This document shows positions 8,948 to 63,514 of a stretch of DNA of 63,514 nt, in pieces. The DNA is from a virus, in IMG/VR virus record IMGVR_UViG_3300025086_000018, positions 1-63,514 of that record. One strand, written 5' to 3'. The notes below the pieces were generated by a model, which made no database searches, was not told the DNA's origin, and worked only from the letters and a program-made list of their open reading frames with translations. The position numbers and the translations under genes are program-made. How positions within the stretch are numbered: position 1 is the stretch's first letter; every line of letters starts with the position of its first letter.

Positions 8948-10781
8948 TATTACCGTTTACATGAAGTACGCTAAGTACTTACCAAAATTAAACCGAAGAG
9001 AAACATGGCATGAACTTGTTACTAGAAATAAAGACATGCATATTAAAAAGTATCCTGATTTAAAAGACCAGATCGAAGAAACATATAAATTAGTTTATGA
9101 AAAGAAAGTTTTACCTTCTATGCGATCGCTACAATTTGGTGGTAAACCTATTGAGATTAGTCCTAATAGGGTATATAATTGCGCATATCTACCTATCGAT
9201 AGTGTTGATTCGTTTAATGAGATAATGTTTTTATTATTAGGTGGTACTGGTGTAGGTTACTCAGTACAGAAACATCACGTTGACAAACTACCTATGATTA
9301 GTAAACCTTATGAAAAAAGAACTAGAAGATTTTTAATAGGTGACTCAATTGAAGGTTGGGCTGATGCTATTAAAGTATTAATGAAATCATATCTTGGTGA
9401 CAAAAGAAGTTCACGTATAGAGTTTGACTACTCTGATATACGCCCTAAGGGTGCAATGTTAGTAACGTCTGGTGGTAAAGCACCTGGACCTCAACCACTG
9501 AAAGAATGTATAGTAAAAATAACAGGAGTCTTAGATTCAAAGGAGGAAACAGATACGCTCTCCACTATAGAAACACACGATATAGTTTGCCATATTGCAG
9601 ACGCTGTCTTAGCTGGTGGGATTCGTCGAGCAGCTCTTATAAGCTTGTTCTCAGCGGACGACGACGAGATGATCTCAGCGAAGTCTGGAAATTGGTGGGA
9701 AACAAACCCACAAAGAGGTAGAGCTAATAACTCTGCTGTACTTATGAGACATAAAATAACTAAAGAGTTTTTTATGGATCTGTGGAAACGTGTAGAACTA
9801 TCAGGAGCAGGTGAACCTGGAATATATTTTAACAACGACAAAGACTGGGGTACAAACCCTTGTTGTGAAATAGCTTTACGACCATATCAGTTTTGTAACC
9901 TATGTGAAGTAAATGCTAGTGATATTGAATCACAAGATGAGTTAAACAACAGAGTGAAAGCAGCTGCGTTTATAGGAACGTTACAAGCTGGATATACGGA
10001 CTTTCACTACTTAAGAGACGTATGGAAAGAAACAACAGAAAAAGAAGCATTAATAGGAGTGTCGATGACGGGTATAGGATCTGGCAGGGTGTTAGGATAC
10101 GACATGCAGAAAGCCGCTCAATTAGTAAAACGAGAAAACGCAAGAGTCGCCAAAGCGATTGGGATTAATAATGCTGCAAGATGCACAACCGTGAAGCCTG
10201 CAGGGACAACATCTCTGGCGCTAGGAACCTCATCTGGTATTCACGCATGGCACAATGATTATTATCTGCGTAGGATCAGGGTTGGTAAAAACGAAAGTAT
10301 ATACAAATACTTAGTTGAGAACCATCCATTATTGGTTGAAGATGAGTTTTTCAGACCTCATGACACAGCTGTAATTAGTATACCACAGAAAGCTCCGGCT
10401 GGATCTATACTTAGAACTGAATCACCTTTTCAATTACTTGAACGTATAAAGAAGGTTGCTACAGAGTGGGTTGCACCTGGTCATAGAAAAGGATCTAACA
10501 CTCACAATGTTTCTGCTACGGTCAGTTTAAAAGCTGAAGAGTGGGAAGACGCAGGTGAATGGATGTGGGATAACAGAAAACACTATAATGGTTTATCTGT
10601 ATTACCATTTGATGGTGGAACATATACTCAAGCCCCTTTCGAGGACATTGATGAAGGAACCTACATAAATAGGTTACAACATTTAAAAGATATAAATTTA
10701 GAACATGTTATCGAAACTGAAGACAACACTGATCTTAGTGGTGAGCTTGCTTGCGCTGGTGGTGCTTGTGAAATTACTTAA
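8919..10781 (+). CDS. nrdJ: Class II (B12-dependent) ribonucleoside-triphosphate reductase
   Basis: This 620-residue enzyme reduces ribonucleotides to deoxyribonucleotides for phage DNA. Signatures are LPSMRSLQFGGKP and LLLGGTGVGYSVQ in the N-terminal third, NPCCEIALRP near residue 312, NLCEVN just after, and VKPAGTTSLALGTSSGIH near residue 425. The C-terminal tail ends C612-AGGA-C617, the redox pair that shuttles electrons from a thioredoxin-like donor. No NrdB-type partner is present, as expected for a single-subunit cobalamin enzyme of the Lactobacillus type (which has about 740 residues). A CxxC micropeptide frame and a terminator follow. Confidence 0.9.
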   Translation: MELSNQILSDITVYMKYAKYLPKLNRRETWHELVTRNKDMHIKKYPDLKDQIEETYKLVYEKKVLPSMRSLQFGGKPIEISPNRVYNCAYLPIDSVDSFNEIMFLLLGGTGVGYSVQKHHVDKLPMISKPYEKRTRRFLIGDSIEGWADAIKVLMKSYLGDKRSSRIEFDYSDIRPKGAMLVTSGGKAPGPQPLKECIVKITGVLDSKEETDTLSTIETHDIVCHIADAVLAGGIRRAALISLFSADDDEMISAKSGNWWETNPQRGRANNSAVLMRHKITKEFFMDLWKRVELSGAGEPGIYFNNDKDWGTNPCCEIALRPYQFCNLCEVNASDIESQDELNNRVKAAAFIGTLQAGYTDFHYLRDVWKETTEKEALIGVSMTGIGSGRVLGYDMQKAAQLVKRENARVAKAIGINNAARCTTVKPAGTTSLALGTSSGIHAWHNDYYLRRIRVGKNESIYKYLVENHPLLVEDEFFRPHDTAVISIPQKAPAGSILRTESPFQLLERIKKVATEWVAPGHRKGSNTHNVSATVSLKAEEWEDAGEWMWDNRKHYNGLSVLPFDGGTYTQAPFEDIDEGTYINRLQHLKDINLEHVIETEDNTDLSGELACAGGACEIT

Positions 10782-60424: not shown

Positions 60425-60429
60425 AAACC

Positions 60430-60612
60430 ACGACTTCAACGCACCGTGTCGTAGCGGTGAAGAAGACAAACAGTGGGGTTGAGTGACGGCTCAACTTGGA
60501 CAGCGAGGTCAGGTGTATACGGATTAAATGAGGTAAATGTTCGCATAGAAAACCCATCGATGAAGTTACAGACTGTTCTAGACATGAGAGGTTCGACTCC
60601 TCTCTCTCGCTC
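60430..60612 (+). ncRNA. Structured RNA with tRNA-like 3' end
   Basis: A 189-base gap with little coding potential holds several stems. ACGAC/GTCGT (60430/60448) and CACCG/CGGTG (60442/60455) interleave as a possible pseudoknot or switch. GTTGAG/CTCAAC (60478/60490) is a clean hairpin. AGCGAGG (60502-60508) pairs with TCTCGCT (60605-60611), enclosing a T-arm-like GAGAGG-TTCGACT-CCTCTC (60586-60604). The latter part looks like the tRNA-like domain of tmRNA, but a normal anticodon arm is not seen. It could be a shortened tmRNA-like RNA or a new family. Confidence 0.4.
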
Positions 60613-61268: not shown

Positions 61269-61270
61269 AT

Positions 61271-61306
61271 ACAAACTAAATACGAACACCATAAGATAAT
61301 ATAAAT
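61271..61306 (+). promoter_or_regulatory. Plus-strand promoter element 6
   Basis: ACAAACTAAATACGAAC (identical to element 3), seven bases, GATAATATAAAT, then ATG 12 bases after the G of GATAAT. Confidence 0.75.
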
Positions 61307-61899: not shown

Positions 61900-62341
61900 G
61901 AATTACGCAAGAGAAGGACACATGCTCGAAGAAAGAATGATCGAGCTAGTTAAAAATCATTTAGAAATATCAATATCTCAAGATGTAAGTGACTTTGACA
62001 ATGTTGATTGTCATATATATAGTGAATCTACTGCAGATGGCTATGACGTTTATGTATGTACTAATGATACTAGACAACCTAGTATTTGTGAAGATGTATA
62101 CTATTATGATAATGAGTTGTCTGATGCTTTTCAAGAGCAAGTAAGATGGGGTGACAAAACATTCTACATATGTGATAGCATATACGAAGACTGTTACTTT
62201 GATGACACTTTAGTTGAGATGTTTGTAGAATACGTTGAAGATATTATAGAAAATGACGAACTAGATATTACGTTAGAAGAAATTGAATACTTAAAGAAAG
62301 AATATGAAATAGAAGAAGAAACTGAAACTACTAATAGTTAA
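61889..62341 (+). CDS. Very acidic hypothetical protein, 150 aa
   Basis: Rich in Asp, Glu and Tyr (DNELSDAFQEQVRWGDKTFY, then VEYVEDIIENDELDITLEEI), with several Cys. Such acidity suggests a DNA mimic or an inhibitor of a basic host protein, as in other phages, but this is guesswork. A strongly structured RNA lies directly after its stop. Confidence 0.6.
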   Translation: MGVRNYAREGHMLEERMIELVKNHLEISISQDVSDFDNVDCHIYSESTADGYDVYVCTNDTRQPSICEDVYYYDNELSDAFQEQVRWGDKTFYICDSIYEDCYFDDTLVEMFVEYVEDIIENDELDITLEEIEYLKKEYEIEEETETTNS

Positions 62342-62354
62342 TTAGTTTAGTTAT

Positions 62355-62513
62355 CCACGATAGCGCGTGAGATGTGTATGTAGTGAATAGGTCCGATCAG
62401 CAGACAACGAAACTACAATCTTACTCACTTGGCAAGCTCGTACTTTCCCTTTAACTCTCCTGTAGATCCTATAGGTGTTGAGAGTTATAAGTGGCGGTAC
62501 GGGCTTTTCGTGG
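62355..62513 (+). ncRNA. Novel-looking structured RNA, about 159 nt
   Basis: Five stems can be read. Outer closing stem: CCACGA (62355) / TCGTGG (62508). A long arm: GTG (62367)/CAC (62426), AGAT (62370)/ATCT (62418), TGTAGT (62379)/ACTACA (62412). A 10-bp stem: AAGCTCGTAC (62434)/GTACGGGCTT (62497) with one G-U pair. Inside it, AACTCTC (62453)/GAGAGTT (62480), capped by CTGTAG (62460)/CTATAG (62469) with a three-base loop. All are compatible and form a three-way junction. The gap has no credible coding frame. I do not recognise the family. Confidence 0.65.
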
Positions 62514-62516
62514 TAT

Positions 62517-62552
62517 ACAAACTAACTACGAATACTAATAGATAATATTAAT
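62517..62552 (+). promoter_or_regulatory. Plus-strand promoter element 7
   Basis: ACAAACTAACTACGAAT, seven bases, GATAATATTAAT, then the ATG 12 bases after the G of GATAAT. It begins four bases after the structured RNA ends, so the RNA is made from an upstream promoter. Confidence 0.75.
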
Positions 62553-62855
62553 ATGGATAAAAAACAAATGAACGAATTAGCTGATCTTATTATAAGCAAG
62601 CTAGAAGTTAAACAAACAGAGTGGGATGAAGAGTTTCACAGTTCCGTGCAAGATCTTTATGGCAAAGAATCTAGCAAAGAAGCTTTTGTTATGACTGAAG
62701 AAGAAGCTTTGATAGGTGAACTAGCAAGACTACAAACACTATGCATGATATTCGAAAATAAAGAAGAATATGAAAAAGCAGCTATAGTGTTAAGCAAATT
62801 AAATGCAATTAAAACTAAACTAAGAAAAGGAGATTATGACGGAGACGACGATTAA
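62553..62855 (+). CDS. Early acidic helical protein, 100 aa
   Basis: MDKKQMNELADLIISKLEVK..., with TEEEALIGELARLQTLCMIF and an acidic tail DYDGDDD. Mostly helical, probably coiled coil. It overlaps the ligase start by 20 bases. A replication accessory role is possible from position. No family recognised. Confidence 0.6.
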   Translation: MDKKQMNELADLIISKLEVKQTEWDEEFHSSVQDLYGKESSKEAFVMTEEEALIGELARLQTLCMIFENKEEYEKAAIVLSKLNAIKTKLRKGDYDGDDD

Positions 62856-63514
62856 ACCTATGCTAGCGCATAAATATAATCCTGACAAAGCTGATTATCC
62901 AGCATACATACAGCCAAAACTAGATGGCGTAAGATGTGTATTTACAAAAGACGGTGCATACAGCAGAACAGGTAAAGAATTTAAAAATGTAGATCACATC
63001 AAAAAAGATTTAGAAGTAGTATTCAATAGATACCCAAATCTTATACTAGATGGTGAACTATACAATCATGGATTAAAAGATGACTTTGAAAAGATCATTT
63101 CATTAGTCAGAAAAACTAAACCAACACAAGATCACAGAGACGAAGCAGCTCAACTAGTACAATACCATATATATGATGTAGCTAGTTTTCCACACGCTAC
63201 ATATAACTGGCGTATGAATTTTGTGAATACGCTAAACGACTCAGCTGTAGTTAAAACTAGTACTTGTCTATGTCTTATTAAGACTAAAGTTGTACTAGAT
63301 TATGACGAAGCAGTTAGACAACACAAAAAATACCTAAAACTAGGTTACGAAGGCAGTATATACAGATCTATTGATGGTAAATACAAAAACACTAGGTCAT
63401 GGGACTTAATGAAGTTCAAAGACTTTGAAGATTCAGAAGCCACAATTGTAGGCTATGAAACAGGTAAAGGTAAGAGGCAAGGCACGATTGGTAAGTTCAT
63501 CATGCAGGATGACG
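62836..63514 (+). CDS. ATP-dependent DNA ligase, N-terminal part (continues at base 1)
   Basis: The adenylation domain begins METT-less (MTETTIKPMLAHKYN) and has the nucleotidyltransferase motif I PKLDGVR (K is the adenylated Lys, about residue 27), motif III ILDGELYNHG, motif IV YEGSIYRS and motif V WDLMKFKDF. It runs off the window end and resumes at base 1. Joined at 63399/1 the enzyme has 284 residues, with an OB-fold-like C-terminus. It overlaps the previous gene by 20 bases. Confidence 0.9.
   Translation, partial: MTETTIKPMLAHKYNPDKADYPAYIQPKLDGVRCVFTKDGAYSRTGKEFKNVDHIKKDLEVVFNRYPNLILDGELYNHGLKDDFEKIISLVRKTKPTQDHRDEAAQLVQYHIYDVASFPHATYNWRMNFVNTLNDSAVVKTSTCLCLIKTKVVLDYDEAVRQHKKYLKLGYEGSIYRSIDGKYKNTRSWDLMKFKDFEDSEATIVGYETGKGKRQGTIGKFIMQDD
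63400..63514. repeat. Right copy of imperfect terminal direct repeat
   Basis: Matches bases 1-115 with five differences, all inside the ligase reading frame, none breaking it. See the left copy for the detail. Confidence 0.85.

Follow-up and report, generated by a model that had tools for sequence, protein, structure and literature searches.

In mitochondria, tRNAs punctuate polycistronic transcripts. The attC sites of integrons are folded intergenic sequences of variable length, with constant ends and variable tips, which lie between changing genes. Bacterial genomes also contain short palindromic intergenic units of the REP, BOX and MITE types, and those of the BOX type are modular. Short intergenic elements that form hairpins, either repetitive or double, have been described in the mitochondria of sponges and fungi (PMC2800124). 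Small structured RNAs of phages include the HDV-like theta ribozymes of gut phages (PMC10879173), as well as the manA and wcaG motifs of marine cyanophages, which are cis-regulatory, conserved single folds with a defined gene context and are represented in Rfam (PMC2864571).

Here we describe a structured RNA encoded by a viral DNA of 63,514 nt (IMG/VR record IMGVR_UViG_3300025086_000018, positions 1 to 63,514; hereafter the window), which, judging from comparison with its relatives, very probably belongs to an undescribed modular RNA family of the early regions of marine Bacteroidota-type phages. Like the mitochondrial hairpin elements, it is spread over intergenic sites, scattered, varied between close relatives and sometimes arranged in tandem; unlike them, it has a two-stem frame, an orientation locked to that of the genes, compensatory changes and a low copy number, and its cassettes, residing in dsDNA phages, are common to tRNA-like RNAs. 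With tRNA punctuation it shares the placement of structured RNAs, some of them tRNA-like, flush between stop and start codons, whereas the scaffold of the element (S1) is no tRNA and its processing is a proposal. The setting resembles that of the theta ribozymes (a small structured RNA beside phage tRNAs in Bacteroidota phages), but the RNA matches no HDV-like or other ribozyme in Rfam and its frame has no conserved catalytic core. The manA and wcaG motifs are likewise structured RNAs of marine phages found through metagenome comparison, in contrast to which this RNA is modular and gene-independent. All the features of attC sites named above are points of likeness to the phage element, whose constant stems (CCACGA/TCGTGG and GCTCGTAC/GTACGGGC) differ by reading from attC core sites and in which selection acts on the RNA strand. 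From REP, BOX and MITE units it differs in being orientation-locked, in occurring once or twice per genome and in its strand-specific pairing. Conservation as a single fold is usual for natural structured RNAs, while the fold of this phage RNA is assembled from swappable, nested parts across unrelated scaffolds, and thus offers a natural case of combinatorial RNA evolution.

Fold and setting of the window element

The original prediction had postulated a strongly folded RNA of no recognised family, with several compatible stems, in a gap without a credible gene. All of the named stems were recovered, and the MFE structure of the element includes each of them: P1 (6 bp), P2 (10 bp, including one U.G pair), a tip hairpin of 7 bp (62453-62459/62480-62486) and 6 bp (62460-62465/62469-62474), and a bulged arm (approximately 62363-62433). 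The element takes up the greater part of a 211-nt gap between ORFs (Table 1).

Table 1. Features of the window element, its surroundings and a second RNA of the same genome
Feature	Position	Strand	Evidence or remark
Whole element, scaffold S1, both slots filled	62355-62513	+	fold z -3.79; homologues
P1, 5' strand CCACGA	62355-62360	+	pairs with 62508-62513; covariation CG/UA at pair 2
Slot 1 arm, M1 shell GCGCGUGAGRYGUGU ... UCUUACUCACUUGGC	62363-62433	+	in about 20 other phage contigs, three scaffolds
Module M3 within M1, GUAG-UGAAUAGGUCCGAUCAGCAGACAACGAAA-CUAC	62380-62416	+	alone in slot 1 of L007 and L020; inside M1 of L136 and L138
P2, 5' strand AAGCUCGUAC	62434-62443	+	pairs with 62497-62506; double change at pair 6; kept U.G
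Slot 2 (P2 tip), UUUCCCUU shell with nested 7+6 bp hairpin 62453-62486	62444-62496	+	same module in slot 2 of L093; other modules in other genomes
P2, 3' strand GUACGGGCUU	62497-62506	+	near-invariant across the family
P1, 3' strand UCGUGG	62508-62513	+	conserved in the family
Upstream ORF of 150 aa, without a family; stop codon 13 nt ahead of P1	61889-62341	+	
Downstream ORF, 100 aa, no family	62553-62855	+	
ATP-dependent DNA ligase, cut by record end	62836-63513	+	phrog_114, E 2.5e-64; anchor for finding relatives
Repeat TACAAACTAACTACGAATACTAATAGATAATA preceding the following ATG; probably a promoter or leader motif of the phage	62516-62547	+	also present at 61270; numerous in relatives
Second RNA, tRNA-like 3' end (T-arm GAGAGGUUCGACUCCUCUC, AGCGAG/CUCGCU), variable insert	60427-60612	+	homologues

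So much pairing had been considered unlikely by chance, and the calculations agree: the MFE is -55.0 kcal/mol, against a mean of -39.9 (sd 4.0) for dinucleotide-shuffled controls (z -3.79; 1 of 200 shuffles equally stable), and the element ranks first by MFE among 587 windows of 159 nt sampled from the + strand of two early arms (mean -25.9, sd 7.5). It might be argued that a GC-richer patch folds well by accident, since the local GC content is higher than that of the surroundings and the complement strand also folds (z -3.5). Taking into account the z value, the first rank and the existence of homologues with compensatory changes, such an artefact has a negligible probability; it is refuted by the covariation described below.

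The three-way junction inferred previously is present in the window, but it does not represent a fixed fold, as the slots hold interchangeable nested hairpins: because slot contents vary among relatives and slot 1 can be empty, this junction is one state of a modular RNA. Nothing was found in support of a packaging RNA or a host-RNA mimic, both of which had been suggested. A peptide encoded inside the element was also considered and rejected; the short ORFs cannot be conserved, because the arms holding them are replaced in relatives.

The AT-rich repeat TACAAACTAAATACGAACACTAATAGATAATA, found at 61270-61301 and 62516-62547, precedes start codons; no occurrence is expected by chance in the window, many copies are present in the early regions of related genomes, and it is a probable phage promoter or leader signal.

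Search for relatives and known families

Using the ligase gene as an anchor, 65 related loci were collected, to which the RNA was similar (BLAST) in short islands only, i.e. the 3' end (GGTACGGGCTTTTCGTGG), parts of the arm and the beginning of P2. A scan of 2.9 million viral contigs with a 17-base pattern of the 3' end yielded 48 stretches. The curated set comprises 54 distinct copies, and relatives reside on about 40 IMG/VR contigs of uncultured phages, several of these contigs being fragments. Matches of the 17-base pattern in unrelated contigs (e.g. L068, L069, L073 and L081), as well as L121, were left out as likely chance matches; L140, obtained in the M1 search, is doubtful. In the crowded arrays L112, L004 and L010_3625, P1 was assigned by eye.

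At the gathering cut-off, the element had no match in Rfam 15 (tRNA, tmRNA, riboswitches, ribozymes, introns, 6S), and loose E-values added a chance SCARNA7 match alone (12.1 bits versus a cut-off of 65). ARAGORN recognised no tRNA or tmRNA gene in the window. Rfam scans of the relatives, at both gathering and loose thresholds, revealed two true tRNAs and nothing else. GenBank phage isolates contained no DNA relative of positions 62000-63000 of the window, of the L112 array or of two other RNA islands, nor any relative of the second RNA of the window apart from one weak 32-nt T-arm match. BLAST comparison of the modules with MT497017 and with MW202828 (the nearest record by terminase) was negative, and no description of such a modular RNA was found in the open-licence papers searched. 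RNAs of this type escape both Rfam and phage annotation.

The core pattern had no match in the genomes of 84,980 bacterial species, while a search of these with M1 matched a contig of a Sphingobacteriales MAG and, likely by chance, a sequence from Chloroflexi. The former (L154; JAAXIF010000025.1; 63,395 bases), binned in the MAG and carrying M1 in scaffold S2, is probably a phage of the same lineage and a hint at its host. The nearest relative of the large terminase of the window virus is that of a spring-water podovirus record (MW202828, 63%), followed by those of Flavobacterium and Cellulophaga phages (44% for elemo phages); these similarities point to a marine flavobacterium, or a relative of one, as the probable host.

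A constant frame of two stems

Every curated copy (n=54) consists of P1 (CCACGAA/UUCGUGG) and P2 (GCUCGUAC/GUACGGGC) with a short U-rich joint. Slot 1, located between P1 and P2, ranges from 0 to 132 nt and slot 2, at the P2 tip, from 7 to 63 nt, and reliable copies span 38 to 170 nt in total length (a longer value, for L010_3625, was set aside owing to uncertain P1 assignment). When slot 1 is empty, a simple interrupted hairpin remains (L015, L038, L080), and some relatives are reduced to a two-stem hairpin of 38-44 nt. The window element has P1, P2, the kept U.G and compensatory changes, and its slots hold modules known from elsewhere (M1, M3 and the tip module).

Pair 6 of P2 is G-C in 28 and A-U in 26 of the 54 copies, without exception, and pair 4 is U.G in all but one, which has C-G; the copies are related by descent, and counts treating them as independent are inflated. 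Pair 2 of P1 is C-G except in the CUACG/CGUAG variant, which has U-A there, and one locus (L018) carries GCUCACAC/GUGUGGGC. Among 29 distinct frames, 95.5% of cells are paired (30-48% in slid controls) and the covariation score is 0.186, versus 0.128 for shuffled alignments, none of 500 being as high. The 5' partners were not chosen by the scan, because the collection was seeded on the 3' strands. The gene-sense strand is the more stable one in 50 of 52 elements (mean z -4.6 versus -3.45; Wilcoxon p 4e-10), which agrees with the retention of a U.G pair that becomes an A.C mismatch on the opposite strand. These substitution patterns demonstrate, at the level of sequence comparison, that the constant frame (P1, P2 and the kept U.G) is selected as RNA in the gene sense. 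The compensatory changes in both stems, together with the lack of an Rfam match, support the earlier view of a structured RNA of no recognised family.

Exchangeable and nested modules

The 53 filled slots of the 54 copies fall into 24 clusters, with no sequence similarity between clusters. At site A, pairs of genomes with 85-92% identical flanks carry unrelated arms; in the 40 most similar pairs slot 1 differs in 37, some of which have the M1 shell alone in common and a different inner hairpin. Conversely, modules M1, M3, M6, M7, M15 and M18 are common to different slots or scaffolds. M6 occupies slot 1 of L013 and slot 2 of L057 and L091, and lies upstream of a tRNA-like 3' end in L056. M15 fills slot 1 of L112 and recurs in the arm of a tRNA-like RNA in L125, where its closing stem differs. 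M18 (AACCNCGGCNNAAGCAAAGGU) matches 23 stretches of viral contigs, where it occurs inside tRNA-like RNAs, inside M1 (L151, L156) or alone (L165, L169).

M7 resides in slot 1 of S1 (L010, L022), free-standing (L004, L070, L112), in tRNA-like RNAs (L124, L133) and beside true tRNAs (L039, L129). Its 16 distinct sequences show 100% pairing, with 8 of 12 pairs altered in both partners and a covariation score of 0.556 (0.303 when shuffled; 0 of 500). The loops GAGUGUG and AAAAAC never change, an invariance that is partly due to construction, because the extraction pattern fixed the loops; the stem changes are free of this effect.

Some of the contigs with the M1 shell carry it in two further scaffolds, S2 (ACGAGYGUG-[M1]-CACCUCGU) and S3 (AACGAGGUGAGGGUGGUA-[M1]-AGAACGGCAGGAUAAAGC...ACCUCGUU), both of which precede ordinary AT-rich leaders. 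M3 is inserted directly in slot 1 in L007 and L020, where its closing stem is changed yet paired, and within M1 of scaffolds S3 (L136) and S2 (L138). In the window, M3 lies within M1, which in turn lies within P1, and the RNA is therefore nested three deep. The shell and nested hairpin of slot 2 of the window were found in one other contig only. As judged from these exchanges, the junction and the P2 tip are shown to carry self-closing hairpin cassettes that are exchanged, nested and common to other scaffolds. About two dozen RNA modules are new, and some of them covary clearly and have loops that are strikingly conserved.

An internal loop, CCGCGGC/GCAAAGG, was observed in both strand orders (i.e. 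circularly permuted) in different modules, in slot 1 of L012, L017 and L093, and also in L001, L014 and L151.

Position at gene junctions

All copies are oriented in the sense of the genes around them, and no copy sits within a credible ORF. An AUG is located exactly 1 nt past P1 (CGUGG-U-AUG) in 33 of the 54 copies and within 3 nt in 41, while the window element and about ten others have no AUG directly after P1; in the window the next one (62553) is 39 nt downstream, beyond the repeat. The upstream stop codon is mostly 0 to 18 nt before P1, and at site D P1 starts within the last codons of the upstream gene.

Placement directly upstream of start codons would suit an ordinary leader regulator of the downstream gene, such as a riboswitch or attenuator. 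This explanation is very improbable, as the AUGs following P1 start at least eight unrelated gene families, different scaffolds precede one family, the sensor-like arms are not conserved, Rfam gave no match and no terminator-like site is present (a search for a GC stem followed by a T run found none, and the UUUU lies inside P1). S1 stands before the gene MSKQQQTITKQLQNLYSWT in L013, L070 and L107, whereas L016 and L173 have a tRNA-like RNA in this place, so that different scaffolds can substitute for each other at a given gene start. In L050, a true tRNA occupies the junction after ...AYYVLLD* or AYMVLLD*, which is filled by S1 in other loci.

Genomes contain one or two copies, typically one of the C-type (GUACGGGC) and one of the U-type (GUAUGGGC); in L112 three are arranged in tandem. 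At the junction following ...AYYVLLD* or AYMVLLD*, the element is present in 11 loci and missing from 19, often with a plain stop-TATG instead. Empty junctions here are of the type CTAGATTAATATG, and distant relatives also show an empty junction. With TA at the end of filled sites and TAATATG at the empty junction, the sequence is too short to judge target site duplication. Such filled and empty sites, the nesting, the tandem arrays (L004, L112) and the presence of one module at many sites are what might be expected of selfish mobile hairpins, i.e. small palindromes of no function to the phage that insert at intergenic sites and into each other's loops. We consider this improbable: the strand relative to the genes is always the same, neither insertion in both orientations nor a high copy number per genome was observed, no dedicated enzyme was seen (nor any target duplication, at sites too short to judge it), and the conserved U.G, the more stable sense strand and the perfect compensatory changes all argue against it.

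Possible mode of action

The stop/start placement points first to a role within the mRNA rather than to a free sRNA. The best explanation overall, to which we assign about an even chance, is that the element is a modular RNA co-transcribed with the early polycistronic mRNA and acting in cis as a structured junction element. Somewhat below even stands our confidence in the cis junction mechanism as such, which could operate in either of two ways. P1 might close the insert and fold it out, so that the upstream stop would adjoin the downstream AUG and allow coupled re-initiation. Alternatively, the closed element could be recognised (by P1/P2 and the U.G) and cut by an RNase, leaving the next message nearly leaderless, much as tRNAs punctuate mitochondrial transcripts. 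The arms would turn over by recombination via the conserved flanks and stems, and would be tolerated at the junction because each closes on itself. In the window, where the next AUG follows the probable promoter repeat, the element would delimit the upstream unit at its 3' end. In bacteria of this kind, translation relies little on Shine-Dalgarno pairing, and these elements open to test the question of how dense phage genomes separate co-transcribed genes in such hosts.

Several observations speak against the cis mechanism: no AUG comes directly after P1 in the window element and about ten other copies, and ordinary AT-rich leaders lie behind S2 and S3, which share M1. Moreover, if the frame alone mattered, the arms should decay, yet M7 and similar modules retain their loops and pairing exactly, a sign that the arms may have functions of their own. 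The rival that we take most seriously, because retention of exact loops across scaffolds would be needless for a mere spacer, is a trans-acting RNA, processed to a stable small RNA in which the frame protects and the swappable arms, diversified in an arms race, serve as domains that recognise host proteins or RNAs (e.g. defence sensors) or act as decoys for them. Hypervariable arms on a constant frame, modules whose loops and covarying stems are kept across scaffolds as separate functional domains would be, and the accompanying tRNA-like scaffolds speak for it. A cis role is in better accord with the position flush with stop and AUG codons and with the fact that tRNA-like RNAs stand in for the element ahead of one and the same gene; genomes carry just one or two copies, and the RNA has no known target or partner. 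We therefore regard action in trans as rather unlikely.

Besides the preferred cis reading of the element, we tentatively propose, as a possibility well short of even, that this phage lineage maintains a repertoire of folded RNA domains (M1, M3, M7, M18 and others), every one of which would combine a conserved loop of its own with a neutral closing stem. These would be swapped by recombination between scaffolds (S1, the two other stem scaffolds and tRNA-like RNAs), and the arms would function as domains for recognition or as decoys, with hosts exerting a diversifying pressure on them. If true, this would be an RNA counterpart of protein domain shuffling.

Accompanying RNAs

The second RNA of the window genome ends 2 nt before the AUG of the next gene (60614). 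It was called by neither ARAGORN nor Rfam and its MFE z value is only 0.1; homologues with different inserts are present in L001, L002, L004, L007, L014, L015 and L023. A tRNA-like family of the form GGGCGUG...GCAGGUUCGAUUCCUGC-CACGUCCAC-U-AUG, with a variable hairpin instead of the anticodon arm, was seen in L016, L032-L040, L124, L125, L130, L133 and L159-L173; in L130 the arm is nearly absent. Another conserved RNA, GACGGGAUAAAACAGAGAAAAGGAUAUAAGUCAGGG...GUCCCGUCC (L036, 2115-2210; also L033-L037 and L039), lies upstream of tRNA-like RNAs, and its outer stem covaries (GACGGGAU/GUCCCGUC versus GAUAGUAU/GUGCUAUC). In a Flavobacterium elemo phage (L117; MT497017), an isolate that would be accessible to laboratory study, an unannotated gap at 10150-10680 (- strand), surrounding an odd annotated tRNA-Ala, is possibly a relative of the tRNA-like islands.
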